From NCBI RefSeq assembly GCF_033100095.1, contig NZ_CP136921.1, positions 2,884,501 to 2,948,500 on the forward strand: 64,000 nt of DNA, read 5' to 3'. The notes under the pieces are model-generated. The model saw nothing but the letters and a program-made list of their open reading frames with translations. It was not told where the DNA came from and did not search any database. This DNA is from Diaphorobacter limosus (GTDB lineage Bacteria; Pseudomonadota; Gammaproteobacteria; Burkholderiales; Burkholderiaceae_C). Positions 30,120-63,849 of this stretch are shown in pieces (the stretch's first letter is position 1; each line of letters opens with the position of its first letter). A program made the translations under genes and the position numbers.

Positions 30120-31195
30120 TCAGCCGGCGCTCGGCGACGCGGCACCGGCCCGGTACTCGTTGGGGGTGCGGCCTGTCCAGCGCTTGAAGGCATGGCGAAA
30201 GCTCGCGGCGTCGCTGAAACCCAGGGCGGCGGCGATGTCGTCGACCTCGAGGAACGAGGTCGACAGGTAGTCGACAGCCAAGGCCTGGCGCACGCTCGCC
30301 AGCAGTTCCAGATAGGTCGTCCCCTCTTCGTTGAGCCGTCGCCGCAGCGTCCGGGCGTTGATGCACAGCCCCGCCGCGATCTCGTCGATGCTGGGAAAGC
30401 GGCCGGGTGTTCGCGTCAGTTCAGCATACACGCGGCGGCTCATGCCCGAGCTCCACTTGTGGTCCTCCAACAGCTTGGCGCAGGCTGCCGAAACCTGGGT
30501 CGCGGCGATAGGGTTCGCGAATTGGGGTGTCCGGTCCAGCCACTCGGCTGGGTAGTCCACTTGCGTGCGAGGCTGATCGAAGGCGACGGTGCATTCGAGC
30601 ACCCGCTCCAACAGGCCAGCGTATCTCGGACGCGGCAACGCGAAGTTCGCGCGCGCAGGCATGCACCAGGCGCCCATCACGTGCTTGGTCAGACTGACGT
30701 GCGTGCCGAGCTGCATCTCCAGCAGCGCGCGAAACAGATCGGTATCGACGTCGGGCAGCGCGGCTTCGTCGAGCGTCGGTAGAACCCATGAGGCCACGTC
30801 GTGCTCCACCTCGAAGGCAATCCGCATGACCGGTGTGGCAAGTCCGTGATAGCGCACGGCGAGTTCGCAGGCACCGCGCATCGACTCGGCGCACGCCAAC
30901 GCATAGCCGTACATGCCGTAGTCGGTGAGGCGCATTCCGCCCCCCACGAGTGCGGCCCATCCCGCCTCTGGCGACAGCCTGCCGGCGTTGCGGCACACCA
31001 CGATGAACTGGTGGGAACCGAGATCCGAGTCTGGGCATTCGAGGCTTCGGCCGGCGACAGGCCGGAGCCGGCCAGCAGCAGCTTGATGTCCACCCCCAGT
31101 TCACTCAGGGCGCGCATGACGGCGTGCACCTTGAACGGTGCGTACCGCTTTTCGTGCAGCGCAAGCGCCGCGTTCGTTCTCGGTTTTGTACTCAT
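30120..31195 (-). pseudogene. AraC-family regulator of operon A, frameshifted in its N-terminal part
   Basis: Start ATG 31195 (MSTKPRTNAALALHEKRYA) has AGGAGA seven bases upstream. The protein should be about 358 residues: an arabinose-binding-like effector domain (LTDYGMYGYALACAESMRG) and a C-terminal AraC helix-turn-helix (IDEIAAGLCINARTLRRRL; FLEVDDIAAALGFSDAASFR). At about 31013-31016 the sequence reads GGTGGGAACCGAG where the second copy reads GGTGGACCGAG. These two extra bases break the frame after about residue 60. The rest stays open in the shifted frame to the stop at 30120. Divergent from fadD by 194 bases, it is the expected controller of operon A. Confidence 0.85.
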
Positions 31196-32693
31196 GGATT
31201 TCTCCTGGAATCGTGTTGTTGCCTTCTGCATTCTCCACACGGAGACCCTCGGGAAACTCCCTAGCTACTGTCCTCAGCGATGCGCATCTTGTCCTCGCCC
31301 GTCATTTACGCCGAAGCGGCCAGACCCGACATTACTGACCCAGCAAGCAGCCTCACAGAACGCGGTATCAACACAAGCAGGAGACAAGCATGGGCACTCG
31401 CCACTGGACCCAGTCGTACGCCGACATCCCCGCAGAGATCGACGCCGATCGCTATGCGTCAATGGTCGATCTGTTGGACGCCGCGCTCGAGCGCCACGCC
31501 TCGCGTCCGGCGTTCAAGGCGTTCGGCCAGACCTTGAACTACGCCGACGTCGACCGGCTGTCGCGGTCATTCGCGTCCTATCTGCAGAACAAACTGGGCG
31601 TACGCCAGGGCGACCGCGTGGCGGTGATGATGCCGAACCTGCTGGCGTTCCCGGTCACGCTGCTCGGCATCATGCGCGCCGGCGCGGTGCAGGTGAACGT
31701 GAATCCGCTGTACACGCCGCGCGAACTCGAGCACCAGCTCAACGATGCCGGCGTCGAGACGATCGTCGTCTTCAGCGGCTCGACGCCGACGCTGGCAGAG
31801 GTGCGCGCCAATACCGGCCTGAAGACGGTCATCACGGTCGCTGTCGGCGACGCCAGCGGCGCCACGCTGCCGAGCCCGCCGGTCGATGCACTGCTCGGCG
31901 AGTCGGTCTCCTTTGCCGAGGCGCTGGCCCAGGGCGGCGGGCTGCCGCTGCAGCCGGTAGCGCTGACCGGCGACGACCTGCTGTTCCTGCAATACACCGG
32001 CGGCACCACCGGGCTGTCCAAGGGCGCCGCGCTGTCGCACCGCAACCTCGTCGCCAACACCGAGCAGTTCAAGGCCTTCATGCCGGTGGCGGTGAAAGAG
32101 GGCGAGGAAGTGTTGGTGACTGCCATCCCGCTGTACCACATCTTCGCGCTGATGGTGTCGCTGAGCTATCTGTCGGTGGGCGCCGAGAACTGGCTCGTCG
32201 CCAACCCGCGCGACATGGACGGCTTCGTCGGCGTGTTGGCGCAGGCCAGGCCGACGGTTTTCATGGGCGTCAACACGCTGTACGGCGGGCTGGTGCAGCA
32301 CCCCAAGCTTGGCGAAGTGGACTGGTCGCGCCTGAAGATCGCGATCGGCGGTGGCGCTGCCGTGGTCGGGGCGGTGTCCGACCGCTGGAAGGCCATCACC
32401 GGCCACTTCATCCGCGAGGGCTACGGCCTGTCGGAAACCTCGCCGGTGGTGTCGTTCAACCCGGCCTACATCACCGAGTTCACCGGCACGACCGGCCTGC
32501 CGATGCCGTCGACCGACGTCAAGCTGCTCGACGACAAGGACCTCGAAGTGGGGCTGGGGCAGCCGGGAGAGATCTGCGTCAAGGGGCCGCAGGTGATGCG
32601 CGGCTACTGGGAGAAGCCCGACGCGAACGCCACTGCGTTCACAAGCGACGGCTACTTCCGAACGGGCGACATCGGCGTCTTCGACGACAAGGG
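30142..32693. repeat. Large direct repeat, copy 1 (2.55 kb)
   Basis: Nearly identical to 51165-53716 at a constant offset of 21023 bases. It covers the AraC-type gene, the divergent promoter and the first four fifths of the acyl-CoA synthetase gene. Differences seen by eye are two 2-base indels in the regulator, a C/T at 31341/52364 and a G/A near 32552/53575. Beyond the left edge the copies are unrelated; beyond the right edge they drop to ordinary homology. Confidence 0.9.
31196..31389. promoter_or_regulatory. Divergent promoter region araC / fadD, copy 1
   Basis: A 194-bp gap between divergent starts. Shine-Dalgarno sites are visible at both ends (AGGAGA before each ATG). The same gap is kept in copy 2 with one base change. 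No unambiguous -35/-10 pair or AraC half-site could be fixed by eye. Confidence 0.55.
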
Positions 32694-33021
32694 CTACCTG
32701 AAGATCGTCGACCGCAAGAAGGACATGATCATCGTCTCCGGCTTCAACGTCTACCCGAACGAGGTCGAGGCCGTGGTGGCCAATTGCCCCGGCGTGGCCG
32801 AGGCGGCGTGCATCAGCGTGCCGCATGCGAAAACCGGCGAGGCGGTCAAGCTGTTCGTCGTCCGCCTGCCGGGCGCCGGCGTGACGGAGGCCGAGGTGAT
32901 CGCGCATTGCCGCGCCGGCATGACCGGCTACAAGGTGCCGAGCGTCGTGCGTTTCGTCGACGCGCTGCCGAAATCCAATGTCGGCAAGATTCTCCGGCGC
33001 GAGCTGCGCAACGTTGATTGA
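31390..33021 (+). CDS. Long/medium-chain acyl-CoA synthetase, operon A
   Basis: AMP-forming ligase that activates fatty acids to acyl-CoA in the cytoplasm. The 543-residue protein has the ATP/AMP motif YTGGTTGLSKGAALSH (residues 202-217), the acyl-specific motif REGYGLSETSP (Y345), the hinge DRKKDMIIVSGFNVYPNE (from D441) and the catalytic lysine K533 in SNVGKILRREL. It is the first gene of operon A and 10 bases before phaZ. The first 434 residues are almost identical to the paralogue at 52413; the last 109 differ strongly, an abrupt change at the repeat edge. Confidence 0.92.
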   Translation: MGTRHWTQSYADIPAEIDADRYASMVDLLDAALERHASRPAFKAFGQTLNYADVDRLSRSFASYLQNKLGVRQGDRVAVMMPNLLAFPVTLLGIMRAGAVQVNVNPLYTPRELEHQLNDAGVETIVVFSGSTPTLAEVRANTGLKTVITVAVGDASGATLPSPPVDALLGESVSFAEALAQGGGLPLQPVALTGDDLLFLQYTGGTTGLSKGAALSHRNLVANTEQFKAFMPVAVKEGEEVLVTAIPLYHIFALMVSLSYLSVGAENWLVANPRDMDGFVGVLAQARPTVFMGVNTLYGGLVQHPKLGEVDWSRLKIAIGGGAAVVGAVSDRWKAITGHFIREGYGLSETSPVVSFNPAYITEFTGTTGLPMPSTDVKLLDDKDLEVGLGQPGEICVKGPQVMRGYWEKPDANATAFTSDGYFRTGDIGVFDDKGYLKIVDRKKDMIIVSGFNVYPNEVEAVVANCPGVAEAACISVPHAKTGEAVKLFVVRLPGAGVTEAEVIAHCRAGMTGYKVPSVVRFVDALPKSNVGKILRRELRNVD

Positions 33022-33030
33022 GGCGGGCGT

Positions 33031-33939
33031 ATGACCAGCGATGCCATGGGCGCCGTCCCGGCGCCGGGTACCGGCTCTCCCGAATCGCCGGCGGGCCGCA
33101 ACGGAGCCGCCGCCCGCACCGCTGAGGCCGGCGGACATCCGCTCGAGATCCAGATGCTGCAGGTGGGCGGCCAACTGCTGCGCGTCGGCCGCCAGGCGGG
33201 TTCGCAGCGCGGCGCAACGCCGTTGCTGATGTTCAACGGCATCGGCGGCAGCATCGAGCTGCTCGAGCCGCTCGCACGCGCGATGCCCGCGCGCGAGGTC
33301 ATCGTGTTCGATGTCCCGGGCGTCGGCCATTCGCCGATGCCGCGCCGGCCCTACCGGCTGCGCACCCTGGCGCGCTGGGCGCTCGGCGTGCTCGATCACT
33401 TCGGGCATGCGCAGGCGGACGTGCTCGGTGTCTCATGGGGCGGCGTGGCGGCGCAGGAATTCGCACGCACGGCGGGCGAGCGCTGCCGGCGGCTGATTCT
33501 GTGCGCCACCACATCGGGTATGTTCATGCTGCCGGGGCATCCGAAGGCAATCGCGCGCATGGTCACGCCGCGGCGCTACATGAGCAAGGCCTACGCAACC
33601 CAGGTCAGCGGCGACATCTACGGCGGCGACTTTCGCCGCCAGCCCGAGCTGGCGGCCGAGTTCATGAAGCACGTCAAGTGGCAGTCGCGCTGGGGCTACT
33701 ACCTGCAGATCGGCGCCGCGACGGGTTGGACCAGCGTGCATTGGTTGTGCCGCCTGAAGCAGCGCACGCTGGTGATGGCCGGCCGTGACGACCCGCTGAT
33801 CCACACCTTCAATGCCCGGCTGATGCGATCACTCATTCCGAACAGCGAACTCAAGCTGTTCGACTGCGGCCACCTCTTCCTGATGACACGCCAAGAGGAG
33901 TCGGTACGTGCCATCAACGAATTCCTCGACAAAGCCTGA
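33031..33939 (+). CDS. Medium-chain-length PHA depolymerase (PhaZ-like alpha/beta hydrolase), operon A
   Basis: Alpha/beta hydrolase of 302 residues resembling intracellular PhaZ of Pseudomonas: LLMFNGIGGSIELLEPLARA, FDVPGVGHSPMPRRPYRL, GVSWGGVAAQEFA (nucleophile S135), YGGDFRRQPELA, and DCGHLFLMTRQEE (H281). The acid is probably D253 or D254 in GRDDPLI. PhaZ releases hydroxy acids from stored PHA granules. No signal peptide, consistent with an intracellular enzyme. The first 40 residues are Ala/Gly/Pro-rich and poorly conserved with the second copy at 54050. It lies between acyl-CoA synthetase and phaJ/phaC, so a PHA role is favoured over a general esterase. Confidence 0.85.
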   Translation: MTSDAMGAVPAPGTGSPESPAGRNGAAARTAEAGGHPLEIQMLQVGGQLLRVGRQAGSQRGATPLLMFNGIGGSIELLEPLARAMPAREVIVFDVPGVGHSPMPRRPYRLRTLARWALGVLDHFGHAQADVLGVSWGGVAAQEFARTAGERCRRLILCATTSGMFMLPGHPKAIARMVTPRRYMSKAYATQVSGDIYGGDFRRQPELAAEFMKHVKWQSRWGYYLQIGAATGWTSVHWLCRLKQRTLVMAGRDDPLIHTFNARLMRSLIPNSELKLFDCGHLFLMTRQEESVRAINEFLDKA

Positions 33940-33966
33940 ACACCTCTTCGAACCAGGAGACTCAAC

Positions 33967-34431
33967 ATGAGCACTGCACCCATGGGCCCCGCCGAACTGG
34001 CGGACATGACCGGTCAGGAGATCGGCGTTTCATCGTGGATCGAAGTCGGCCAGCGGCGCATCGACGAGTTCGCGCACTGCACCGAAGACCGTCAATGGAT
34101 TCACGTCGATGTCGAACGCGCGGCCAGGGAGAGCCCGGCCGGCGGCACGATCGCGCACGGCTACCTGACCCTCGCGCTGCTGGCGCCCACCGGGATGGAA
34201 ATCCTGGTGCCGCGCGTGCGCGCCAAGCAGATCCTCAACTACGGTTTCGACAAGGTGCGCTTCCTCGCCCCGGTGCTGGCCGGAAAGAGGGTGCGCAACC
34301 GCATCAAGCTCGCGGCTGCCGAGGACAAGGGCGGCGGCCGCTGGCTGCTCTCGCTCGAGAACACGGTCGAGATCGAGGGCAGCGACAAGCCGGCGCTGGT
34401 GGCCACCACGCTCGCGATGGTGTTCGGCTGA
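33967..34431 (+). CDS. MaoC/NodN-type dehydratase, PhaJ-like (R)-enoyl-CoA hydratase, operon A
   Basis: A 154-residue single hotdog-fold protein. It has the MaoC/R-hydratase signature: DRQWIHVDVERA followed by GGTIAHGYLTLALL, giving the Asp/His pair used to hydrate trans-2-enoyl-CoA to (R)-3-hydroxyacyl-CoA. That product is the substrate of PHA synthase, encoded 21 bases downstream, so the gene probably links beta-oxidation to polymer synthesis. NodN-like proteins share the fold, so substrate is inferred from context. AGGAGA lies six bases before the start. Confidence 0.82.
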   Translation: MSTAPMGPAELADMTGQEIGVSSWIEVGQRRIDEFAHCTEDRQWIHVDVERAARESPAGGTIAHGYLTLALLAPTGMEILVPRVRAKQILNYGFDKVRFLAPVLAGKRVRNRIKLAAAEDKGGGRWLLSLENTVEIEGSDKPALVATTLAMVFG

Positions 34432-34452
34432 GCGACGAAGGACGACCAAACC

Positions 34453-36411
34453 ATGGCCACCAAGACCACCTCCGCGGGCAGCGCCCGCACCACCGCCGCG
34501 ACAGGCGCCAAGCGTACCGCCGGCAAGACGGCTGCCGCCACCACCCCGGCCGTCCGCACCACCGCCGCGGCGGGCGCCAAGCGTGTGGTCGGCAAGTCCG
34601 ACGCCGCCACTACCGCCACCGCTGCCACTCGCGTCGCGAAGAAGGCGCGCAGCGCGGCGGATACCGCCGCGAAGCTGTCCGGCAGCGCGAGCAAGGCCGG
34701 CCTGTCTGCGCTCGGCACGGCCAGCGATCTTGGTGGCCTCGTCGCCGAGGCCAGCCGCAACACGCTCGCGATTAACCCGCTGATCGGCTTGAATAAGCGC
34801 GACGTGGCAAGCGCCGCCGGCTCGCTGCTCAAGGCCGTCGCCAGCACGCCGCGGCGCGCCAGCACGCACCTGGGCCGCTACGTGAAGGAACTGGGCCAGG
34901 TCGCGAAAGGGAAGTCCGAGCTCGTGCCCGACCCCAAGGACCGGCGCTTCGCCGATCCGGCGTGGAAGAGCAACGCCCTGTACGCGCGCCTGATGCAGTC
35001 GTACCTGGCGACGCAGAAGGAGCTGTCGCACTTCATCGACCAGTCCGCATTGAACAAGCTCGAGAAGGGTCGCGCGCACTTCTTCGCCTCGCTGATCACC
35101 GACGCGCTCGCCCCGAGCAACTGGCTGTTCGGCAACCCTGCGGCGGTGCGCAAGATCGTCGACACCGGGGGCGACAACCTCGTCAAAGGGCTGAAGAACC
35201 TGATCCACGACGCGCGCCACAACCACATGCTGCCTTCAATGGTCGACGCCACGCCGTTCAAGGTCGGCGAGACCATCGCCACCTCGCCCGGCCAGGTGGT
35301 GCTGCGCCACGAGATGTTCGAGCTGCTGCAGTTCGCTCCGACGACGCCGCAGGTGCACGCCCGCCCACTCGTGATGTCGCCGCCGCAGGTCAACAAGTAC
35401 TACGCCATCGACCTGACGCCGGACAAGAGCCTCGTCAAGTGGGCGACCGACTCGGGCGTGCAGCTGTTCGTCGTCAGCTGGCGCAACCCGACGGTCGAGC
35501 ACCGGCACTGGGGCCTGGACGACTACGTGCGTGCCCTCGATGCGGCGGTCGATGCGACGTGCAAGATCACTGGTAGCACCGACGTCAACATGTGGGGCAG
35601 TTGCTCGGGCGGCATGACGCTGGCTGCCTATCTGGCGTGGCTGGCTGCCACCGGCAAGCCCAAGGTCGCCAACACGACCTGGGCCGTGTGCGTGCTCGAC
35701 ACCGAAGCGGCGATCGAGGATTCGACGCTCGGCCTGTTCAACTCGCCAGCGACGATCCGTGCCGCCAAGGCGCGCTCGCGGCGCAAGGGCTTCGTCGATG
35801 GCGCGGAGATGGCCTCGATGTTCGCCTGGCTGCGTCCGAACGACCTGATCTGGAACTACTGGGTCAACAACTACCTGCTCGGCAACCGCCCGCCGGCCTA
35901 CGACGTGCTGGCCTGGAACGCCGACACCACCCGGCTGCCCGGCCAGTACCACTGCGACCTGCTCGAGCTGGTCGAGAAGAACCCGTACGTCAACGCCGGC
36001 ACGCTCGAAGTGCTCGGCGTGCCGGTCGACATGGGCCAAGTCAAGCTTGGCGCGTACGTGATCGCCGGCATCACCGACCACATCACGCCCTGGCGCGCGT
36101 GTTACGGCACGGCGCGGCTGTTCGGGCCCGAGACGACGTTCGTGCTGGCCAACGCGGGCCACCTGCAAAGCATGATCAACCCGCCGGGCGTGCCCAAGGC
36201 CTTCTTCTTCAGCGGCCCGGCCGCTACGGACGACCCGATGGCCTGGGCCGAGGGCGCCCAGCCGAGCAAGCAGGAAGGCAGCTGGTGGCCGCACTGGCGC
36301 GAGTGGATCAAGGGCAAGTCCGGCGAGCTGAAGCCCGCGCCCGCGAAGCTCGGATCGCGCAAGTACCGGCCCCTGGCGCCAGCACCTGGAACCTACGTGA
36401 TGGAGCGCTGA
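34453..36411 (+). CDS. Poly(3-hydroxyalkanoate) synthase with basic N-terminal tail, operon A
   Basis: Polymerises (R)-3-hydroxyacyl-CoA on the granule surface. The 652-residue protein has the PhaC alpha/beta fold with the triad C384 in MWGSCSGGMTL, D542 in GITDHITPW and H570 in NAGHLQSMI; LVMSPPQVNKYYAIDLTPDKS is also typical. The first 100 residues are an Ala/Lys/Thr/Arg-rich tail (TTAATGAKRTAGKTAAATTP) resembling histone H1-like or PhaM-type tails, absent from standard PhaC. The conserved region starts near SRNTLAINPLIGLNKRD. The upstream neighbours are phaZ and phaJ. The second copy at 55469 has a shorter tail. Confidence 0.92.
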   Translation: MATKTTSAGSARTTAATGAKRTAGKTAAATTPAVRTTAAAGAKRVVGKSDAATTATAATRVAKKARSAADTAAKLSGSASKAGLSALGTASDLGGLVAEASRNTLAINPLIGLNKRDVASAAGSLLKAVASTPRRASTHLGRYVKELGQVAKGKSELVPDPKDRRFADPAWKSNALYARLMQSYLATQKELSHFIDQSALNKLEKGRAHFFASLITDALAPSNWLFGNPAAVRKIVDTGGDNLVKGLKNLIHDARHNHMLPSMVDATPFKVGETIATSPGQVVLRHEMFELLQFAPTTPQVHARPLVMSPPQVNKYYAIDLTPDKSLVKWATDSGVQLFVVSWRNPTVEHRHWGLDDYVRALDAAVDATCKITGSTDVNMWGSCSGGMTLAAYLAWLAATGKPKVANTTWAVCVLDTEAAIEDSTLGLFNSPATIRAAKARSRRKGFVDGAEMASMFAWLRPNDLIWNYWVNNYLLGNRPPAYDVLAWNADTTRLPGQYHCDLLELVEKNPYVNAGTLEVLGVPVDMGQVKLGAYVIAGITDHITPWRACYGTARLFGPETTFVLANAGHLQSMINPPGVPKAFFFSGPAATDDPMAWAEGAQPSKQEGSWWPHWREWIKGKSGELKPAPAKLGSRKYRPLAPAPGTYVMER

Positions 36412-36470
36412 AGCCAGCGCACCCGGCCCACGCACGCGACACGTACACAACACGCAAGGAGACACCCATC

Positions 36471-37484
36471 ATGAGCACCTACACCGCCCCGATGAAGGAC
36501 ATGCAGTTCGTGCTGCACGAACTGGCGGGCCTCGACGCGATTGCCCGGCTGCCCGGCTACGGCGACGTGAGCACCGAACTCGTCGATGCGGTGCTCGAAG
36601 GCGCCGCCACCTTCTCCAGCGAGGTCTGGGGGCCGCTGAACAAGGTCGGAGACCTGCAGGGTCTGAAGCGCCACGACGACGGCCGCGTCACCACGCCCAA
36701 GGGCTTCGTCGAGGCCTATGCCAAGTTCGTCGAGTCGGGCTGGAACGGCCTGCGCTTCGACCCCGCCTTCGGCGGCCAGGGGCTGCCCAAGCTGGTCGAC
36801 ACCGCGGTGATGGAGATGTGGAGCGGCGGCGGCTCGGCGGTGAACAAGTGGCTGGCGATGACGGGCACCTTCATCCGCGAAGGCTACGGCCTGTCGGAGA
36901 CCAGCCCCATCCTGACCTTCAACCCGGCCTCGGTGCAGCAGTTCAGCGGCACCACCGGCCTGCCGCTGCCGTCCACCGACATCAAGCTGCTCGACGACGA
37001 CGGCAACGAAGTCGGCCTCGGCGAATCCGGCGAGATCGTCGCCAAAGGCCCGCAGGTGATGAGCGGCTACTGGGAGAAGCCGGAAGCCAACGCCACCGCC
37101 TTCACTCCCGACGGCTACTTCCGCACCGGCGACATCGGCGTGTTCACGCCCGAAGGCTTCCTGAAGATCGTCGACCGCAAGAAGGACATGATCATCGTGT
37201 CGGGCTTCAACGTGTTCCCGAACGAAATCGAAGCCGTGGCCACCGCTTGCCCCGGCGTCATGGAATGCGCCTGCATCGGCGTGCCGGACGAGAAGACCGG
37301 CGAGGCGGTCAAGCTGTTCATCGTCAAGGCGCAGGGTGCAACGCTCAGCGAAGCCGAGGTGGTGGCGTTCTGCCGCAAGGAGCTGACCGGCTACAAGGTG
37401 CCCAAGCTCGTGCGCTTCGTCGACGCGCTGCCCAAGTCCACCGTCGGCAAGATCCTGCGGCGCGAACTGCGCGACGTGAAATGA
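36471..37484 (+). pseudogene. Chimera of acyl-CoA dehydrogenase N-terminus and acyl-CoA synthetase C-terminus
   Basis: The 337-codon frame is open. Residues 1 to about 117 match the start of the acyl-CoA dehydrogenase at 57397 ([38 protein letters not shown]). From about 36822 the frame becomes the end of a FadD-type ligase (GGGSAVNKWLAMTGTFIREG, YGLSETSP, DRKKDMIIVSGFNV, STVGKILRRELRDVK). The FAD-binding and catalytic parts of the dehydrogenase and the ATP-binding half of the ligase are missing, so neither activity is expected. This ligase tail differs from those of both intact copies, so it comes from a third gene. The frame is preserved, and an AAGGAGA precedes the ATG. Confidence 0.85.
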
Positions 37485-37513
37485 GCGAGAACCCAGTACA
37501 GGAGGGACAAACC

Positions 37514-39556: not shown

Positions 39557-39577
39557 AGCGACAGGAGCACACACATC

Positions 39578-41149: not shown

Positions 41150-41210
41150 AGCACAGCCACAAGACTCCCCAGAAGACCCACAAGAAACCCCTCCACAGGA
41201 GATTGAAATC

Positions 41211-43326: not shown

Positions 43327-43337
43327 TCGGTGTTTAT

Positions 43338-43384
43338 TGGCTCCCCGACCTGGGCTCGAACCAGGGACCTACGGATTAACAGTC
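43338..43384 (-). tRNA. 3' part of tRNA-Asn(GTT), probable attachment-site remnant
   Basis: Read on the minus strand, GACTGTTAATCCGTAGG and the following TCCCTGGTTCGAGCCCAGGTC ending GGGGAGCCA are positions 30 to the CCA end of a tRNA-Asn. They include the GTT anticodon, the T arm and the acceptor 3' strand. The D arm, the 5' acceptor strand and most of the 5' anticodon stem are absent: upstream sequence reads AGTAACGC instead. Tyrosine recombinases commonly use tRNA 3' ends as attachment sites, and a truncated integrase gene begins 160 bases away. Confidence 0.88.
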
Positions 43385-45985: not shown

Positions 45986-45986
45986 G

Positions 45987-46010: not shown

Positions 46011-46040
46011 CTGCGGCGATTGTTTGGGTACGCAAAGCAC

Positions 46041-50758: not shown

Positions 50759-50761
50759 AGT

Positions 50762-54044: not shown

Positions 54045-54049
54045 CGGAC

Positions 54050-54943: not shown

Positions 54944-54985
54944 GGCCCGCCCGGTCTCGGCATATCGAAAAAAGGAGACATGGAG

Positions 54986-55450
54986 ATGAGTACACAACGC
55001 ATGAGCGCGGCCGACCTGACCGCCAAGGTGGGGCAGGAGATCGGCGTTTCTTCCTGGCTGGCAGTCGATCAAACGCGCATCAACGAATTCGCGCACTGCA
55101 CCGAAGACCACCAATGGATCCATGTCGACATCGAGCGCGCCCGAAAGGAAAGCCCGGCCCGCTCCACGATCGCTCATGGCTACCTCACGCTGTCGCTGCT
55201 GGCACCAACGAGTTTCGAGATCCTGTCGCCGATCGTCGAAGCGAAGCAGCTCATGAACTACGGCCTCGACAAGGTGCGATTCCTGACGCCGGTCGTGGCT
55301 GGAAAACGGGTTCGCAACCACATCAAGCTGCTCGCCGTGGAAAGCAAGGGCAGCGAGCGCTGGCTGCTGACGCTCGAGAACTCGGTTGAGATCGAGGGTG
55401 TGGACAAGCCCGCGCTGGTTGCCGCTTCACTCGTCATGCTCGTCAACTGA
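54986..55450 (+). CDS. MaoC/NodN-type dehydratase, PhaJ-like, operon B
   Basis: A 154-residue hotdog protein, same length as the copy at 33967. It has the hydratase signature DHQWIHVDIERA and STIAHGYLTLSLL. Start 54986 (MSTQRMSAADLTAKVG) is chosen because AAAGGAGA is then about eight bases upstream; the ATG six bases earlier would sit on the ribosome site. Predicted to supply (R)-3-hydroxyacyl-CoA to the PHA synthase 18 bases downstream. Confidence 0.82.
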   Translation: MSTQRMSAADLTAKVGQEIGVSSWLAVDQTRINEFAHCTEDHQWIHVDIERARKESPARSTIAHGYLTLSLLAPTSFEILSPIVEAKQLMNYGLDKVRFLTPVVAGKRVRNHIKLLAVESKGSERWLLTLENSVEIEGVDKPALVAASLVMLVN

Positions 55451-55468
55451 GCCGCAGGAGAGATATCC

Positions 55469-57343
55469 ATGGCAACCCGCAAGTCCCCGCGCTCCCAGGA
55501 TGGCGCTGCGCCCACCTCTACACGACCACCGGCTCGAAAGACCGCACTCCCTGAAGATCGTCCGGCTCGAACCACGCCGACGGCACGAAGCAAGAAAGCC
55601 ACTACCGCGATGCCGGAGGCGTCGGCGGCCGACAGCAAGGCGATGGTGCCGACGGCCGAAACGGCCGAGCTGGTCGCCACGGCCAGCCGCAACACCCTGG
55701 CGATCAATCCCTTGATCGGGCTGAACCAACGGGACATCGCCACATCCGCCAGTGCGCTGCTCAAGGCCGTTGTGGAGAGCCCTCACAAGGCGACGACGCA
55801 CTATGCCAGCTTCCTGAAGGAACTGTCCCAGATCGTCCTGGGCAAATCGGAGCTGGCACCCGATCCGAAGGACCGGCGATTTGCCGACGCTGCCTGGAAG
55901 GACAACGCGCTGTACGCGCGGCTGCTGCAGTCCTATCTGGCCACCCAGAAGGAGCTGACACAGTTCATCGATGGATCAGAGCTCACGGGGATCGAGAAGG
56001 GGCGTGCGCGCTTCTTCGCTTCACTCGTCACCGACGCGCTGGCGCCTAGCAATTGGCTGTTCGGCAATCCAGTGGCCGTGCGCAAGATCATCGACACCGG
56101 GGGCGCCAACCTGGTCAAGGGCCTGAAGAACATGGCCCACGATATGCGGCACAACCACATGATGCCCTCGATGGTCGACACCACGCCTTTCAAGGTCGGT
56201 GAAAACATTGCTACCTCTGCCGGTCAAGTGGTCTGCCGGCACGAGATGTTCGAGCTGCTGCAGTTCACGCCGACCACTCCCCAGGTGCATGCACGGCCCC
56301 TGGTGATGTCGCCGCCGCAGGTCAACAAGTACTACGCCATCGACCTGACGCCCGACAAGAGCCTGGTGAAATGGGCGACCGACTCGGGCATCCAGCTGTT
56401 CATCGTGAGCTGGCGCAACCCCACTGTGGAGCATCGCGACTGGGGTCTGGAGGACTATGTGCGGGCGCTGGACCATGCCGTGGACGTTGCGCGCGAAATC
56501 ACGGGAAGCCCGGACGTCAACATGTGGGGCTCCTGTTCGGGTGGCATGTGCCTGGCGGCCTATCTCGGCTGGCTTGCCGCCAAGGGCGACCGCAAGGTGG
56601 TCAACACCAGTTGGGCCGTGTGCGTGCTCGACACCCAGGCGGCCGTGGAGGATTCGACGCTCGGTCTCTTCAATTCACCAGCGACGATCCGCGCCGCCAA
56701 GGCGCGCTCGAGCCGCAAGGGCTTCGTCAGCGGCGAGGAGATGGCGTCAATGTTCGCCTGGCTGCGCCCGAACGACCTGATCTGGAATTACTGGGTCAAC
56801 AACTACCTGCTGGGCAACAGTCCCCCGGCCTACGACGTGCTGGCCTGGAACGCCGACACCACCCGCCTGCCGGGCCGCTACCACTGCGACCTGCTCGACA
56901 TGTTTGCGCTGAACCCCTATGTGAACGCGGGCACCCTCGAGATCGAGGGGCTGCCGATCGACATGGGGCAGGTCGATCTGGGCGCCTATGTGATCGCCGG
57001 CATCACCGACCACATCACGCCCTGGCGCGCGTGCTACGGAACGGCGCGCATGTTCGGCCCCGACACCACATTCGTTCTGGCCAACGCAGGTCATCTGCAA
57101 AGCCTGATCAACCCGCCGGGCGCGCCAAAGTCCTTTTTCTTCGCGGCGCCGGCCACCTTCGAAGACCCCGGGGCATGGGCCGATGCGGCCCAGTCCGCAC
57201 GCCAGGAAGGCAGCTGGTGGCCGCACTGGCGCGCGTGGATCCAGGGCCGCTCGGGTGAGCTGATCCCGGCACCGGCCCAGCTCGGCTCGCGCCAGCACAA
57301 GCCCCTGGGACCTGCGCCCGGCACCTACGTGCTGGAGCGCTGA
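55469..57343 (+). CDS. Poly(3-hydroxyalkanoate) synthase, operon B
   Basis: A 624-residue PHA synthase with C356 in MWGSCSGGMCL and the Asp and His motifs GITDHITPW and NAGHLQSLI. The core from SRNTLAINPLIGLNQRD onward is highly similar to the copy at 34453, but the first 70 residues are a different, shorter basic tail (Arg/Lys/Pro/Thr-rich, RKSPRSQDGAAPTSTRPPAR). Two divergent synthases in one locus could form mixed granules or differ in chain-length preference. Confidence 0.92.
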   Translation: MATRKSPRSQDGAAPTSTRPPARKTALPEDRPARTTPTARSKKATTAMPEASAADSKAMVPTAETAELVATASRNTLAINPLIGLNQRDIATSASALLKAVVESPHKATTHYASFLKELSQIVLGKSELAPDPKDRRFADAAWKDNALYARLLQSYLATQKELTQFIDGSELTGIEKGRARFFASLVTDALAPSNWLFGNPVAVRKIIDTGGANLVKGLKNMAHDMRHNHMMPSMVDTTPFKVGENIATSAGQVVCRHEMFELLQFTPTTPQVHARPLVMSPPQVNKYYAIDLTPDKSLVKWATDSGIQLFIVSWRNPTVEHRDWGLEDYVRALDHAVDVAREITGSPDVNMWGSCSGGMCLAAYLGWLAAKGDRKVVNTSWAVCVLDTQAAVEDSTLGLFNSPATIRAAKARSSRKGFVSGEEMASMFAWLRPNDLIWNYWVNNYLLGNSPPAYDVLAWNADTTRLPGRYHCDLLDMFALNPYVNAGTLEIEGLPIDMGQVDLGAYVIAGITDHITPWRACYGTARMFGPDTTFVLANAGHLQSLINPPGAPKSFFFAAPATFEDPGAWADAAQSARQEGSWWPHWRAWIQGRSGELIPAPAQLGSRQHKPLGPAPGTYVLER

Positions 57344-57396
57344 GTCCATCCATCGATTCCCCGACATTCCCAGAAACACTCCAGGAGCCCACTGCC

Positions 57397-59193
57397 ATGA
57401 CCAACTATTCCGCCCCGATCCGGGACATGAAATTCGCGATGCAGGAGCTCGCAGGCATGGAGGAGGTGATACGCCTGCCGGGCTATGAAGAAGTATCGAA
57501 TGAGCTGGTGGATCAGGTGCTGGAAGGCGCGGGCACCTTCGCCGCCGAAGTCTGGGGCCCGTTGAACGTTCCGGGCGACACCGAGGGCCTGAAGTGGCAC
57601 GAAGATGGCAGTGTCACGACCCCGAAGGGCTTCATCGAGGCCTATGGCAAGTTCGTCGAGTCGGGATGGAACGGTCTGCGCTTCGACCCTGAGTACGGCG
57701 GGCAGGGTCTGCCCAAGCTGGTCGACACCGCGGTGATGGAGATGTGGAACGCGTCGAACATGGCGTTCTCGATGGCGCCGCTGCTGACCCAGGGGGCGAT
57801 CGAAGCGGTGTTCCTGCGCGGCAGCGACGAGCAGAAGCAGCGCTTCCTGCACAAGATGGTCTCGGGCGAATGGACTGGCACGATGAACCTGACCGAGCCG
57901 CAGGCCGGCTCGGACCTGGGGCTGATCCGCACCAAGGCCGTGCCCGAAGGCGAGCACTTCCGCATCCATGGGCAGAAGATCTTCATCAGCTTTGGCGAAC
58001 ACGACCTGACCGAGAACATCGTGCACCTGGTGCTGGCGCGCACGCCCACCGCACCCGAGGGGGTGCGGGGCATCTCGCTGTTTGTGGTGCCGAAGTTCCT
58101 GGTCAACGACGACGGCAGCCTGGGTGCGCGCAACGATGTGCGCTGCGTGTCGATCGAGCACAAGATGGGCATCCACGCGAGCCCGACGGCGGTGCTCGCC
58201 TTCGGCGACGGGCCGGGCGCGATCGGCTACCTCATCGGCGAGGAGAACCGCGGTCTCGAATATATGTTCATCATGATGAACGAGGCGCGCTTCGGCGTCG
58301 GCGTGCAGGGGCTGGGCGTGGCCGAGCGCGCCTACCAGCAGGCCCTGGCCAACGCCAAGGAGCGCGTGCAAGGCAAGGACGCCACCGCGCCCAAGGGCCC
58401 GAGCGTGCCGATCATCCGGCATCCGGACGTGCGGCGCATGCTGATGAGCATGAAGTCGCGCGTCGAGGCGATGCGCGCGCTGGCCTACGTGGTCGCGGCG
58501 ATGTTCGACCAAGCCCATCGTGCGGGCGACGAGGCGGCGCGCAGTGCGGCGCACGCCGGCGTCGACCTGCTGATCCCGATCCTCAAGGGCTGGTGCACCG
58601 AGACCGGCATCGAGGTGGCCTCCACCGGCATCCAGGTGCACGGCGGCATGGGTTTCATCGAGGAGACCGGTGCCGCGCAGCACCTGCGCGACGCGCGCAT
58701 CACCACGATCTACGAGGGCACGACCGGCATCCAGGCCAACGACCTGATCGGGCGCAAGGTGCTGCGCGACGGCGGGCGCTCGATGCAGGCGCTGCTGGCG
58801 CAGATCGACGGCGTGTGCGCGCAGCTCGAGGCCGGCGACGACGCACAGCTACACGCGATCGGCGCGCGCCTGCGCGAGGGCTCGAAGAGCCTCGCCGACA
58901 GCATGCGCTGGATCCTCGCCACCGGTGGGCAGGATCTCAACGCGGTGTTGGCCGGCGCGGTGCCGTTCCTGCACCTTTGCGGCGTGGTGTGCGGCGGCTG
59001 GCAGATGGCCCGTGCCGCGCTGGCGGCGCAGCGCAAGCTCGCAGCCGACTCCGGCGATGCGGACTTCTACCGCGCCAAGATCGCGACCGCGCGCTTCTTC
59101 GCCGACCAGGATCTGTCTCGCGCACGCGGGCTCGCCGAAGCGACCATGCACGCCGGCGCCAGCACGATGGCGCTCGGCGAAGACCAGTTCTGA
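57397..59193 (+). CDS. Acyl-CoA dehydrogenase (with C-terminal extension), operon B
   Basis: A 598-residue flavoenzyme that makes trans-2-enoyl-CoA. It has the acyl-CoA dehydrogenase fold: [37 protein letters not shown] (FAD and substrate contacts), [19 protein letters not shown] and [20 protein letters not shown], followed by an about 130-residue C-terminal domain found in the longer branch of the family. It is the first full-length relative of the fragment at 36471. Stop is 14 bases before etfB, so it probably donates electrons to the ETF encoded next. Confidence 0.92.
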
Positions 59194-59207
59194 TCGAGAG
59201 CCGCGCC

Positions 59208-59957
59208 ATGAAGATCCTCGTCGCCGTGAAGCGGGTGGTGGACTACAACGTCAAGGTGCGCGTCAAGGCCGATGGCACCGGCGTGGACATCGCCAACGTC
59301 AAGATGAGCATGAACCCCTTCGACGAGATCGCCGTCGAGGAGGCGGTGCGGTTGAAGGAGAAAGGCGTGGCGAGCGAGATCGTCGCCGTCTCGTGTGGCG
59401 TGGCGCAATGCCAGGAGACGCTGCGCACCGCGATGGCGATCGGCGCCGACCGCGGCATCCTGGTCGAGACCGGCGAAGAACTGCAGCCGTTGGCGGTGGC
59501 CAAGCTGTTGAAGGCACTGGTGGAGCAGGAGAAGCCCGCGCTGGTGATTCTCGGCAAGCAGGCGATCGACGACGACTGCAACCAGACCGGCCAGATGCTC
59601 GCCGCGCTGCTGGGTCGGCCGCAGGGGACCTTCGCGAGCAAGGTCGAGGTCGAGGACGGTCGTGTGCGCGTCACGCGCGAAGTCGACGGCGGGCTGGAAA
59701 CAGTGAGCCTCGCCACGCCGGCGGTCGTGACCACCGACCTGCGCCTGAACGAACCGCGCTACGTCACCCTGCCCAACATCATGAAGGCGAAGAAGAAACC
59801 GCTGGCCGTACTCAAGCCCGCCGACCTCGGCGTCGATGTGGCACCTCGCCTGGAGACGCTGTCGGTGCGCGAACCGTCGGGGCGCAAGGCCGGCGTCAAG
59901 GTCGCCGACGTCGCGGCTCTGGTCGACAAGCTGAAGAATGAAGCGAAGGTGGTCTGA
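59208..59957 (+). CDS. etfB: Electron transfer flavoprotein beta subunit
   Basis: A 249-residue ETF beta subunit, starting [20 protein letters not shown] and containing [19 protein letters not shown], the AMP-binding region ([19 protein letters not shown]) and the recognition loop signature [22 protein letters not shown] near residues 180-200. With EtfA it carries electrons from acyl-CoA dehydrogenase to ETF-quinone oxidoreductase. Here etfB and etfA are separated by the quinone oxidoreductase gene, an uncommon order, all on one strand. Confidence 0.95.
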
Positions 59958-59973
59958 GCCTCGACAGGACCGG

Positions 59974-61656
59974 ATGGACATGATGAACACGCAGGAACTC
60001 ATCGCCACCCACGGCCCGCGCGAGGCCATGGACTACGACGTCGTCGTGGTCGGCGCCGGGCCGGCCGGGCTCGCCACCGCGATCCGGTTGAAGCAGCTTG
60101 CGCCGGACGCGAGCGTCGTTGTGCTCGAAAAGGGCTCGGAGCCCGGCGCGCACATCCTCTCGGGCGCCGTGATGGACCCGCGCGCGATGGACGAGCTGTT
60201 CCCGGACTGGAAGAATCGGGGTGCCCCGCTGGACCAGGCGGTCACCGGCGACGACGTGCTGTTCCTCAGCGAAACCGGCAGCACGCGCACCCCCGACTGG
60301 CTGGTGCCGCGCAATCTGCACAACGACGGTTGCTACGTCGTCAGCCTGTCGAACGTCGTCAAGTGGATGGCACAGCAGGCTGAAGCTCTCGGCGTCGAAA
60401 TCTTCCCGGGCTTTGCCGCGGCCGAGGTGCTCTTCGACGTGCAGGGATGCGTCGCGGGCGTGGCGACCGGCAACATGGGCATCACGAAGGAAGGCGAGCC
60501 CGGCGAGAACTTCCAGCTCGGCATGGAACTGCGCGGCAAGTACACGGTCTTCGCCGAGGGCGCGCGCGGCCACCTGGGCAAGCAGTTGCTCGCCAGGTAC
60601 AAGCTGACAGAAGGACGCGACACCCAGACCTTCGCGATCGGCATCAAGGAGCTGTGGGAGGTGCCCGCCGAGAAGGCGCAGCCGGGCCGCGTGGTGCACA
60701 CCGCCGGCTGGCCGATGGCGGGCGACACCTTCGGCGGCGGCTTTCTCTACCACCTGGCGGACAACCAGGTCACGCTCGGTTTCGTGATCGGTCTCGACTA
60801 TGCCAACCCGTACCTGAGCCCGTTCGAGGAGATGCAGCGCTGGAAGACGCACCCGGCGATCCGCGCGCACATCGAAGGCGGCAAGCGCATCGGCTACGGC
60901 GCGCGGGCGATCAACAACGGCACGCCGCAGGCGCTGCCGAAGACGGTGTTCCCGGGCGGCGCGCTGATCGGCTGCGACGCCGGCTACCTGAACGCAGCGC
61001 GCATCAAGGGCAGCCACGCGGCGATCAAGTCCGGCATGCTCTGCGCCGAAGCGATGGCGCCAGCGCTCGCCGCGGGCCGCGCCCAGGATGAGCTCACTGC
61101 CTACCCCGAGGCGTTCGAGAAGAGCTGGCTCAACGCGGAGTTGCTGCAGACGCGCAACTTCAAGCTCTGGTTCAAGAAGGGCAAGACGGTGGGTCAGGTG
61201 ATGACCGGCGTCGAGCAGTGGCTGCTGCCCAAGCTCGGCGTGACCAGCCCGCCCTGGACGCTGCACAACCACAAGGCCGATCACGAGGCATTGCAGCCGG
61301 CCAGCGGCTTCCAGCCCATCGCGTACCCGAAGCCCGATGGCCGGCTGAGCTTCGACCGCCTGTCGTCGGTTTTCGTCAGCAACACCAACCACGAAGAGAA
61401 CCAGCCGGCGCACCTGACTTTGAAGGATGCCACGGTTCCGGTGCGGATCAACCTCTCGCAGTTCGGCGGGCCCGAGAGCCGCTACTGCCCCGCGGGCGTG
61501 TACGAATTCGTGCAGAACGCCGACGGCGGCGACCGGCTGCAGATCAACGCGCAGAACTGCGTGCACTGCAAGACCTGCGACATCAAGGACCCGACGCAGA
61601 ACATCGTCTGGGTGACGCCCGAAGGCGGCGGCGGACCGAACTACGCCGGCATGTGA
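59974..61656 (+). CDS. Electron transfer flavoprotein-ubiquinone oxidoreductase
   Basis: A 560-residue membrane-associated enzyme that passes electrons from reduced ETF to the quinone pool. It has the FAD motif YDVVVVGAGPAGLATAIRLK, the membrane/quinone-binding region (GDTFGGGFLYHLADNQVTLG) and a C-terminal 4Fe-4S site with CVHCKTCDIKDPTQNI (C529, C532, C535) and the earlier cysteine in RYCPAGVYEF. ATG 59974 has GACAGGA upstream; two ATGs follow within nine bases. Its place between etfB and etfA ties this operon directly to respiration. Confidence 0.93.
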   Translation: MDMMNTQELIATHGPREAMDYDVVVVGAGPAGLATAIRLKQLAPDASVVVLEKGSEPGAHILSGAVMDPRAMDELFPDWKNRGAPLDQAVTGDDVLFLSETGSTRTPDWLVPRNLHNDGCYVVSLSNVVKWMAQQAEALGVEIFPGFAAAEVLFDVQGCVAGVATGNMGITKEGEPGENFQLGMELRGKYTVFAEGARGHLGKQLLARYKLTEGRDTQTFAIGIKELWEVPAEKAQPGRVVHTAGWPMAGDTFGGGFLYHLADNQVTLGFVIGLDYANPYLSPFEEMQRWKTHPAIRAHIEGGKRIGYGARAINNGTPQALPKTVFPGGALIGCDAGYLNAARIKGSHAAIKSGMLCAEAMAPALAAGRAQDELTAYPEAFEKSWLNAELLQTRNFKLWFKKGKTVGQVMTGVEQWLLPKLGVTSPPWTLHNHKADHEALQPASGFQPIAYPKPDGRLSFDRLSSVFVSNTNHEENQPAHLTLKDATVPVRINLSQFGGPESRYCPAGVYEFVQNADGGDRLQINAQNCVHCKTCDIKDPTQNIVWVTPEGGGGPNYAGM

Positions 61657-61699
61657 CGCGCTCGCTATCACCCTCGACACACTCAGGAGCAAACCTGCC

Positions 61700-62638
61700 A
61701 TGGCCGTCCTCGTCATCGCGGAACACGACAACCGGTCGCTGAAGGTGGCCACGCTCAATGCCGTCACGGCCGCCGCCGCGTTCGGCGTTTCGGTGGATGT
61801 GCTGGTGGCGGGGCACCAAGCCGCCGCGGTCGCCCAGGCCGCCGCCGCCGTGCCAGGCGTCGCGCGCGTTGTGCATGCCGATGCGGCGGCACTGGAGGGA
61901 CAGCTGGCCGAGAACATCGCCGCCCAGGTGCTCGCCGTGGCCGGCGAGTACGAGACCATCGTCTTTCCGGCAACGGCCCATGGCAAGAACGTGGCGCCGC
62001 GCGTGGCAGCCGGGCTCGACGTGGCCCAGATCAGCGACGTGACCCGAGTCGTGTCGCTGAACACCTTCGAGCGGCCGATCTACGCCGGAAATGCCATCGC
62101 CACCGTGCGCAGCAAGGACCGCATCAAGGTTCTCACGGTACGCACCACGGCCTTCGACGCCGCGCCCGTGGATGGAGGCGATGCACGTCTGGTGCTCACG
62201 CCGGCGGTGCAGGACGCGGGCACCTCGCTCTTCGTCGGCGCCGAGATCGCCAAGCTCGACCGCCCGGAACTCACGGCGGCCAAGATCATCGTCAGCGGCG
62301 GACGCGGCCTCGGTTCGGCGGAGAAGTTCGGCGAAGTGCTGACGCCTCTGGCCGACGCGTTGGGCGCCGCGCTCGGCGCGAGCCGGGCCGCGGTCGATGC
62401 AGGCTATGCGCCCAACGACTGGCAGGTCGGGCAGACGGGCAAGATCGTCGCGCCGCAGCTGTACGTGGCCTGCGGCATCTCCGGTGCCATCCAGCACCTG
62501 GCAGGCATGAAGGACTCGAAGGTGATCGTCGCGATCAACAAGGATCCCGAGGCACCGATCTTCAGCGTCGCCGACTACGGGCTCGAGGCCGACCTGTTTG
62601 CTGCGGTGCCCGAACTGACCGCCGCACTGCGCACCTGA
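61700..62638 (+). CDS. etfA: Electron transfer flavoprotein alpha subunit
   Basis: A 312-residue ETF alpha subunit. The N-terminal domain begins [20 protein letters not shown] and the C-terminal FAD domain has [40 protein letters not shown] and [20 protein letters not shown], all family signatures. AGGAG lies upstream of ATG 61700. Forms the heterodimer with EtfB. It is the last clearly metabolic gene of operon B. Confidence 0.95.
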
Positions 62639-62653
62639 GGGAGGGACCACGAC

Positions 62654-63289
62654 GTGCCACGCAAGACCGTCGCTCCCCCGCGAAGCCGGCAGCGCGCCGC
62701 CAGCGCGAAGACCGCCACGCCCGACCTGCCGCTGTTCGCACTGGCGCGCCAGGTGCGTTCGTGGGCCGACACGCTGCTGAGCGTGACCGGCAGCGCCGCG
62801 GACATCGGTCTCAGTCTCGCGCAGGCGCGCGTCAAGGACCCCAAGCGAAAGCAGGCGGTCGCCAAAGCCGGCACCCAGTTGCGGCGCTGGCGCGAGGCGG
62901 CCGGCTTGACGGCGCGCGAACTGAGCGAGGCGGTCGGACTGGGCGATGCCAAGCTGCTCGAGGAGGCCGAAGGCGGTGTGGCAACCCTGCCGTTCGAGAT
63001 CGTGCTGCGCCTGGCCGGCGTGCTGGGTCGCAACGATCCGATCCCGGTGGCGATGTCGCTCACGCGCCAATACAACCCGGAGCTGTGGAAGACCTTGGAG
63101 TCGCTGGGCGTCGGCAAGCTGGCGGTGCAGGGCGCGCGCGAGCGCGAGCTCGCCAACATCTACCGCGGCAACGATGCCGCGCGCAAGCCCGACGACGAGG
63201 ACTTCGCGGAGGTGCTGTCGTTCACGCGCCGGGCGTTCGAGATGGCGGTCGGCTTCCGCGGTGCGGCTGGCAACAGGCGGCCTCGATGA
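62654..63289 (+). CDS. HTH (XRE-like) domain protein
   Basis: A 211-residue cytoplasmic protein with GTG start 62654 (GGGAGGG eight bases upstream). The N-terminus is short and basic. The middle has a helix-turn-helix like those of the XRE family (QLRRWREAAGLTARELSEAVGLGDAKLLEEAE). The rest is helical without recognised features. It overlaps the phasin-like gene by four bases (ATGA), so the two are coupled, and it may be a transcription factor for this PHA/ETF operon. This role is inferred from position only. Confidence 0.7.
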   Translation: MPRKTVAPPRSRQRAASAKTATPDLPLFALARQVRSWADTLLSVTGSAADIGLSLAQARVKDPKRKQAVAKAGTQLRRWREAAGLTARELSEAVGLGDAKLLEEAEGGVATLPFEIVLRLAGVLGRNDPIPVAMSLTRQYNPELWKTLESLGVGKLAVQGARERELANIYRGNDAARKPDDEDFAEVLSFTRRAFEMAVGFRGAAGNRRPR

Positions 63290-63849
63290 GTCGCGGCAAG
63301 GCCTCCATCGGCACGCCCGATCGCGAGAAGGCGGGCACGCCAAAGCCGGCAAAGGCACGCGCTTCGACGCCGGCCCAGCAGCGCCGCACCGCTGCGAAGG
63401 CTCCACCCGCCAGCAAGCGCAGCCCGCAAAGGACGGTGGCGAGCGCAGCCGAGCCCCAGGCCGGACCTGCCACGCTCAAGCAAGTGGCCGCGGCCCTGGC
63501 CCGGTCGCGACGCGAGGACGCGCACGCGCTGATCGAAGCGGGCCGCATGTCGGTCGCCGGCGTGCAGGCGCTGCTGGAGCGCCGCATCGACACGTTGCGC
63601 GAAGCCCTCTCCGAGCTGCGCGCGGTCGGCAAGCTGATGAGCCACGCAGGCGCGCGCGAGACCGTCGCGCACGTTGACGAATTGGCGCGCGGCGCGGTGG
63701 AGTTGACGCTGGCCAGCGTGCGCGAAATGATGGCCCTGGCCAGCTCGACCCAACGGGAAGCGCTCGCCGTCCTGGCTCGGCGTCTGCAAGCAGATCTTCT
63801 GGAATTCAGGCAACTGCAGTCCGCCCTGCGCCAACGGCCCCCCAATTGA
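63286..63849 (+). CDS. Phasin-like protein with basic N-terminal tail
   Basis: A 187-residue protein with a 70-residue Ala/Lys/Arg/Pro-rich N-terminus ([20 protein letters not shown]) and a long helical C-terminus (about residues 75-185; [40 protein letters not shown]). Phasins coat PHA granules as amphipathic helices, and PhaF/PhaM-type ones carry basic Ala/Lys tails that hold granules to the nucleoid; here the tail is at the opposite end. Function is inferred from composition and from the two PHA operons. Translationally coupled to the HTH gene. Confidence 0.6.

Follow-up and report, generated by a model that had tools for sequence, protein, structure and literature searches.

In the single-contig genome of Diaphorobacter limosus (NCBI assembly GCF_033100095.1, contig NZ_CP136921.1; 4.10 Mb, estimated completeness 100%), a window of 64 kb (positions 2884501-2948500, the whole stretch of DNA analyzed here, within which coordinates are counted unless another stretch is named) harbors two paralogous gene clusters for polyhydroxyalkanoate (PHA) storage, one of which runs directly into genes of the kind that act on long-chain alcohols and alkyl sulfate detergents. 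These clusters are termed operon A (31390-43223) and operon B (52413-63849). Each half of operon A is itself of a known type; what is new is the linkage of the two halves, and the apparent way in which that linkage arose. Close protein matches carry the names Burkholderiaceae, Ideonella, Ottowia, Variovorax and Rivibacter, which point to Burkholderiales. The genes of both operons, and the regulators that flank them, are as follows.

30120-31001, minus strand: AraC-type regulator, copy A, broken (PF12625 and PF12833); N-terminal part out of frame, with a 2-nt insertion near 31015 relative to copy B
31390-33021, plus strand: fadD, acyl-CoA synthetase, operon A (PF00501/PF13193); AMP-binding motif intact; first ~1.3 kb nearly the same as the operon B copy
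33031-33939, plus strand: phaZ, poly(3-hydroxyalkanoate) depolymerase, operon A (TIGR02240, 271.6 bits, cut-off 250.6)
33967-34431, plus strand: phaJ-like MaoC (R)-enoyl-CoA hydratase, predicted, operon A (PF01575; D-x4-H present)
34453-36411, plus strand: phaC, class II-like, with a Lys/Ala/Thr-rich N-terminal tail, operon A (PF07167; TIGR01839, 688.8 bits, below cut-off 855.4)
36471-37484, plus strand: chimeric open reading frame (ORF), acyl-CoA dehydrogenase N-terminus (~119 aa) plus FadD C-half (blastp), junction near 36830
37481-39556, plus strand: laoC-like aldehyde dehydrogenase (ALDH) fused to a laoB-like small subunit with a twin-arginine translocation (Tat) motif (PF00171); likely start 37514, LaoB part from ~38987
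39578-41149, plus strand: laoA-like GMC alcohol dehydrogenase (PF00732/PF05199)
41211-43223, plus strand: sdsA-like zinc alkylsulfatase (PF14863/PF14864/PF00753 above cut-off), lipoprotein-type signal read by eye
51463-52263, minus strand: AraC-type regulator, copy B, broken (PF12625 only); C-terminal part out of frame, 2-nt insertion near 51486
52413-54044, plus strand: fadD, operon B (PF00501/PF13193)
54050-54943, plus strand: phaZ, operon B (TIGR02240, 293.0 bits, cut-off 250.6)
54980-55450, plus strand: phaJ-like MaoC hydratase, operon B (PF01575)
55469-57343, plus strand: phaC, class II-like, operon B (PF07167; TIGR01839, 696.7 bits, below cut-off 855.4)
57397-59193, plus strand: acyl-CoA dehydrogenase, operon B (PF12806, PF00441, PF02770, PF02771)
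59208-59957, plus strand: etfB, electron transfer flavoprotein (ETF) subunit (PF01012)
59983-61656, plus strand: etfQO, ETF-quinone oxidoreductase (ETF-QO), accessory copy (PF05187, PF21162; scanned as 59938-61656)
61700-62638, plus strand: etfA (PF01012/PF00766)
62654-63289, plus strand: XRE-type helix-turn-helix regulator (PF13560)
63286-63849, plus strand: phasin-like protein (PF09361, 34.9 bits, cut-off 24.9)

All of the genes named in an earlier note on this DNA were recovered on the plus strand at these coordinates and passed the Pfam or NCBIfam models of their families, which bears out its assignments of FadD, PhaZ, MaoC/PhaJ, PhaC, ALDH, GMC, alkylsulfatase, acyl-CoA dehydrogenase, ETF and phasin. 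Intergenic gaps span -4 to 61 nt in operon A; in operon B the range is -4 to 53 nt. Both match the expectation for operons, and the two clusters are separated by approximately 8 kb that carries an IS91 element, lpdA, rmuC, a truncated major facilitator superfamily (MFS) gene and a DDE transposase. The note had further proposed that every step from alkyl sulfate to PHA has a gene at this locus; that holds for operons A and B taken together, but not for operon A alone, where a full acyl-CoA dehydrogenase is wanting. The chemistry that it proposed is consistent with the families found, from which both the substrates and the flux would have to be predicted.

The storage half of the locus is thus present twice. 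TIGR01839 is the best class model for both polymerases, yet both fall under its cut-off, and the motifs GSCSGG, TDH and AGH are found in each (in copy A at residues 382, with Cys384, 541 and 568). The PhaJ-like proteins carry the D-x4-H motif, which we take to be catalytic, as DRQWIH and DHQWIH, and they are predicted to be (R)-stereospecific. The Lys/Ala/Thr-rich tail of the operon A polymerase (34453-34680) contains a 69-nt tandem duplication, and seems to us reminiscent of the histone-like tails of PHA granule proteins. Four PhaC_N proteins are encoded in the genome in total. The ETF-QO of operon B was considered as a candidate for the only such enzyme in the genome, and this was rejected upon the finding of a second copy, 70% identical, at 1.168 Mb; as the copy in operon B is therefore an additional one, its ETF set looks dedicated. 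Five other ETF-QO stretches (from four relatives, plus the second copy in this genome) gave no etfA, etfB, dehydrogenase or PHA match at E <= 1e-5, and one of them (G009) gave a 26% ligase match.

The remainder of operon A is made up of laoC, laoB and laoA, adjacent and in that order (37481-41149), followed by the sulfatase. The GMC protein is 50% identical to a GMC protein of P. aeruginosa and 45% identical to the LaoA of a second module in the same genome, located at ~2.50 Mb on the minus strand of stretch L036 and arranged as laoC-sdsA-laoB-laoA. That second module is 30-58% identical to operon A gene by gene and differs in order, so that the set is not the product of recent copying; its own combination of ALDH, sulfatase, LaoB and LaoA supports the link between sulfatase, alcohol and aldehyde steps. 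The detergent half resembles, as judged by its families, a known kind of gene set, like the lao and slf systems.

Within this half, the ALDH reading frame continues into a small subunit of the LaoB type that bears a Tat motif, and this tail is 30% identical to the separate LaoB of L036. The possibility that the fusion reflects a sequencing slip was rejected: among the matches listed, the same fusion is present in all 17 proteins at 97-99% identity (676-680 aa), 10 of which have a source in ENA and 7 of which are marked as window-encoded. The next 11 listed proteins (88-91%) have no LaoB fusion and stop after the ALDH, some of them with N-terminal extensions. As a result of the fusion the twin-arginine motif RRSFLK is internal, at residue 503 (counted from 37514), so that export of LaoB would require an internal start, or would not occur. 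A different fusion at the same pathway step, to an N-terminal alpha/beta hydrolase (PF07859), was noted in ALDH relatives P0138, P0142, P0143, P0145-P0147 and P0151.

The sulfatase contains the complete SdsA-type domain set (PF00753, PF14863 and PF14864, all over cut-off), and its best relatives of solved structure are PSdsA (4nur), a sec-alkylsulfatase (4av7) and SdsA1 (2cfu). The motif THSHADHFGG lies at residue 183, and its H, H, D and H columns are the same as those of SlfS, the sulfatase of the slf system. For the remaining zinc ligands, a search with the exact spacing given in the literature (x102 E x18 AE x44 H) gave no pattern match, with E, AE and HH stretches present within the aligned region. 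Domains and motif are those expected of an SdsA-type (class III) alkylsulfatase, for which hydrolysis of primary alkyl sulfates is predicted.

Between the storage half and the detergent half lies the chimeric ORF, fused in frame between phaC and the ALDH. For residues 1-125 of this ORF, blastp gave 68.8% identity to the acyl-CoA dehydrogenase of operon B, and for residues 109-337 it gave 93.6% identity to the FadD proteins P0241 and P0242 from public data. The motif TGG[ST]TG is absent, the chimera having only the C-half of an AMP-binding enzyme, and neither half amounts to a full enzyme. The chimera is only 74-76% identical to the FadD proteins of operons A and B, so its FadD part is a third fadD, one that may formerly have supplied the lao module with its ligase. 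The chimera suggests that two operons were joined by a deletion in which the remaining dehydrogenase sequence and the beginning of this third fadD were lost.

Between the two PHA operons, a tract of ~2.5 kb (~30160-32700 against 51180-53720) differs by only two substitutions and two 2-nt insertions or deletions, whereas outside this araC/fadD tract most 100-bp intervals show 60-90% identity, with lower values in a few gapped stretches. The two PhaC proteins are 75-77% identical, and in a FastTree tree of 12 PhaC sequences they are sisters (support 0.899) with that of genome G050 next. A recent origin of operon A as a copy of operon B was rejected on the strength of the identities outside the araC/fadD tract and between the two PhaC proteins. 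The simplest reading of these sequences is that the operons were duplicated long ago and that araC and the beginning of fadD later underwent gene conversion. The divergently oriented araC copies (30120-31104 and 51137-52263) each carry one 2-nt insertion, at different places, which may reflect either genuine decay or errors of sequencing.

Taken together, these observations make it moderately probable, in our judgment, that the window contains a composite catabolic and storage locus leading from alkyl sulfate through fatty acid to medium-chain-length PHA. According to this scheme, two old paralogous operons of fadD, phaZ, phaJ, phaC and acyl-CoA dehydrogenase would turn fatty acids into medium-chain-length PHA, with copy B having its own ETF and ETF-QO to carry electrons to quinone, and copy A having lost its downstream part and been joined instead to a module of lao type for the oxidation of long-chain alcohols, with an alkylsulfatase as its last gene. 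The lipoprotein SdsA-like enzyme would release long-chain alcohol and sulfate from alkyl sulfates; the alcohol would be oxidized by LaoA with LaoB, and the aldehyde by LaoC; FadD would form the acyl-CoA, from which the operon B dehydrogenase, with ETF and ETF-QO, would produce enoyl-CoA; and PhaJ would convert this to (R)-3-hydroxyacyl-CoA, to be polymerized by PhaC and mobilized by PhaZ. Judging from these gene families, it is plausible that alkyl sulfates feed PHA synthesis. A more elaborate proposal, that one transcript starting at fadD serves both the oxidation of detergent-derived alcohol and PHA synthesis, so that carbon from alkyl sulfates is activated and stored as medium-chain-length PHA without delay, that the LaoC-LaoB fusion keeps the ALDH beside LaoA, and that the deletion was selected for bringing the detergent genes under the regulation of the PHA operon, is speculative and rather doubtful.

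How often such genes are found together was examined from three directions. The first was a set of 80 LaoA loci from named genomes, some of them cut by contig ends, in which an ALDH lies close to LaoA in 62 loci, a LaoB-type small subunit was found by tblastn in 36, and a looser scan gave an upstream ORF for laoA in 72 loci, with an RR motif in that ORF in 61 (a rough count, with some ORFs in the wrong frame). FadD is close to LaoA in 2 of the 80, and SdsA in 1, that of Halopseudomonas xiamenensis (L099), where the order laoC-laoB-laoA-sdsA is that of operon A. The closest LaoA neighborhood found, in Ideonella MAG2 (L053), reads laoB-laoA-fadD; the opposite strand carries an AraC gene there, and the locus gave no sulfatase match. 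In a same-family sample, a LaoA-type GMC is present at E <= 1e-100 in 98 of 397 other genomes (best identity 48%).

The second direction began from the sulfatase, which has a match at E <= 0.001 in 22 of 118 other genomes from relatives, 13 of them with a long match (43-59% identity). Twenty other sulfatase loci were read, L165 among them being slf itself; those 13 genomes supplied 14 of the stretches, and plasmids the other 6. A LaoC-type ALDH is close to the sulfatase in L199 (56%), in L042 (39%) and weakly in L041 (25%); a FadD match in L034 (27%) and in L044 (53%, where a contig end cuts the locus); and an acyl-CoA dehydrogenase match in L045 (27%). In L202 an annotated GMC gene adjoins the sulfatase and was missed by the tblastn scan. 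The third direction was a reading of PHA loci elsewhere, 11 in number (those of G050 and G016, and 9 plasmid records out of 22 that were found), in which phaZ is close to phaC in 10 and phaJ in 9; an acyl-CoA dehydrogenase was found by tblastn in 4, and by annotation in a fifth (Bradyrhizobium). In Caballeronia grimmiae the order is fadD-maoC-phaC-phaZ-acyl-CoA dehydrogenase. This type of phaC is patchy in distribution (2 of 118 other relatives, and 0 of 299 others in the order sample). Its nearest relative as an operon is that of G050, where a distant sulfatase-like protein (26%) was also noted (L050:8690-10435), ~3.3 kb past the acyl-CoA dehydrogenase.

The ALDH that is common beside LaoA, the Halopseudomonas arrangement and the phaZ and phaJ genes close to phaC speak for the composite pathway, but several other results count against it. 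The PHA cassette lies beside LaoA in 0 of the 80 LaoA loci (one, L121, has a lone 26% PhaC match), LaoA-type GMC was found in 0 of the 11 other PHA loci, and neither LaoA-type GMC nor PhaC gave a tblastn match in any of the 20 other sulfatase loci; evolution, as seen from the first two of these counts, shows no usual coupling of the halves. The earlier note had regarded wide occurrence of the cluster without its alkylsulfatase and GMC genes as evidence against the proposal, and had suggested that genomes be searched for co-occurrence; the former situation is approached for the PHA half, whose cassette recurs without this sulfatase type or LaoA. Operon A retains only the chimeric remnant of its acyl-CoA dehydrogenase, so that this step would need operon B or another gene, and in this assembly each araC copy is interrupted by a frameshift. 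The junction itself rests on one assembly and is spanned by 0 of the best 120 of 7994 homologues. According to the available excerpt of one study (PMC13291428), the alcohol dehydrogenase of P. aeruginosa that acts on C12-C24 substrates has LaoA and LaoB as its subunits, and deletion of the LaoAB homologues in P. putida was without effect on growth on C16 and C20 alcohols, which calls for caution in reading essentiality from homology. In a Pseudomonas that degrades sodium dodecyl sulfate (SDS), a PHA-production gene is up 30 min after SDS, which favors the pathway, while the sulfatase and lao genes are not regulated, which speaks against it, as reported in the accessible portion of that work (PMC6107682).

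The alternative that survives best, possible but not favored, is that the locus serves mainly to convert long-chain alcohols, or alkane-derived alcohols, into PHA, with the sulfatase acting on other esters (secondary alkyl sulfates or sulfated lipids) or being a passenger. Such a role would agree with the commonness of lao modules that have no sulfatase, as illustrated by the Halopseudomonas locus being alone among 80 and by the Ideonella arrangement, and with a sulfatase whose relatives include a sec-alkylsulfatase as well as SdsA-type enzymes; set against this, the sulfatase is paired with lao genes twice in this genome and again in Halopseudomonas, and with a different GMC in slf.

Less likely still is that the three similar fadD copies were misassembled to give the junction near 36830, perhaps along with the 2-nt shifts, in which case a full dehydrogenase and a full third fadD may lie between phaC and laoC. 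Full-length FadD forms with the same C-half are public (P0242 and P0243), 58 contigs carry a 252-aa form, the chimera is absent from the 120 homologues cited above, and the araC copies differ by small insertions or deletions only. The genome is, however, a single contig of full estimated completeness, the chimera is in frame, and its small differences from P0241 at the junction resemble a real breakpoint and not a clean switch.

Additional features lie downstream of operon A and bear upon its history.

43337-43384, minus strand: 48-bp copy of the 3' part of tRNA-Asn, an exact match to genome positions 1133045-1133092, where ARAGORN places a tRNA-Asn gene
43545-44252, plus strand: integrase N-terminal fragment (PF13356)
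44426-46042, minus strand: IS91-family transposase (PF04986/PF14319)
49666-50709, minus strand: DDE transposase (PF13358, PF13592), presumably of IS630 type

The 48-bp tRNA-Asn copy is probably a remnant attachment site, the genuine tandem tRNA-Asn genes being located at 1.133 Mb, and together with the integrase fragment downstream of sdsA it is likely to be the remnant of an integrative element. The interval 44426-46414 (the IS91-type copy and the 3' part of lpdA) recurs with 91.7% identity at L036:13500-15476, beside the second lao-sdsA module, and the 352 bp at the other IS91 end (44228-44579) recur with 99.4% identity at L036:6311-6662, on the other side of that module; mobile elements have worked near both lao-sdsA modules. 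That operon A is nothing more than a decaying patchwork, an accident with no joint function, is improbable: it would account for the chimeric ORF, both araC frameshifts, the internal Tat motif and this assortment of IS91, DDE transposase, integrase fragment and tRNA-Asn remnant, but the other reading frames of operon A are open with normal codon-position GC, the checked motifs are intact, and the ALDH-LaoB fusion, with 10 of its 17 listed occurrences from an outside source, is no one-off error.

If the composite pathway works as predicted, the breakdown of a common class of pollutant would be physically linked to the storage of a bioplastic, and the locus would provide a ready-made cassette for the conversion of surfactant waste to PHA. 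It also offers a case in which the assembly of an operon can be read from the sequence, with two known modules, a chimeric ORF as the scar, a single gene fusion and tracts that are almost the same in the paralogous operons.

The earlier note knew of no described operon that joins these functions. For the surfactant part that view was rejected, as the slf and lao systems are already published; the joining of such genes to a PHA cassette is indeed unusual, as the LaoA survey indicates. The LaoABC(R) system of Pseudomonas likewise has an ALDH, a small subunit with a Tat motif (internal here) and a GMC in the order laoC-laoB-laoA; here, in contrast, laoC and laoB form one ORF, the sulfatase follows directly, a PHA operon is attached, and no TetR family member was found among the scanned neighbors, the regulators at the operon ends being of AraC type. 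The LaoR of the lao system is of TetR type. The alkBFGHJKL alkane operon likewise brings together an alcohol dehydrogenase, an aldehyde dehydrogenase and an acyl-CoA synthetase, in a host that makes PHA from alkanes, but its entry step is an alkane hydroxylase and not a sulfatase, and its PHA genes lie outside the operon.

The slfRCHSL genes of Psychrobacter plasmid pP62BP1, which lead from alkyl sulfate to acyl-CoA, likewise encode a regulator of AraC type, an ALDH of coniferyl type, a GMC, an alkylsulfatase and an acyl-CoA ligase. They are described, in the text available from the two reports, as an operon that enables SDS breakdown (PMC3346939, PMC10779009); within it slfCHSL forms an operon that allows E. 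coli to decompose SDS, while SlfR represses and lauryl aldehyde induces, again as given in the accessible part of the source (PMC10779009). The same five functions occupy one locus here, in a different order and with a broken regulator. SlfS and SlfC are 44% and 39% identical to their counterparts, whereas SlfH is a distant GMC (~22% over part of its length, with 49% over a 55-aa stretch), SlfL is only 25% identical to FadD here, and the annotated slf neighbors include no LaoB and no PHA gene. For the storage half, the closest described relatives are the 'group C' phaC genes of Burkholderia sensu lato, which the accessible text places near class II, together with phaZ, phaP and maoC (PMC8231600). 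They share the same phaC, phaZ and maoC, often with fadD and acyl-CoA dehydrogenase, and the PhaC proteins here are 39-56% identical to those of the PHA loci read outside G050; the arrangement in D. limosus differs in its order (fadD-phaZ-phaJ-phaC) and in its presence as two copies, one with an ETF set and the other with lao-sdsA.

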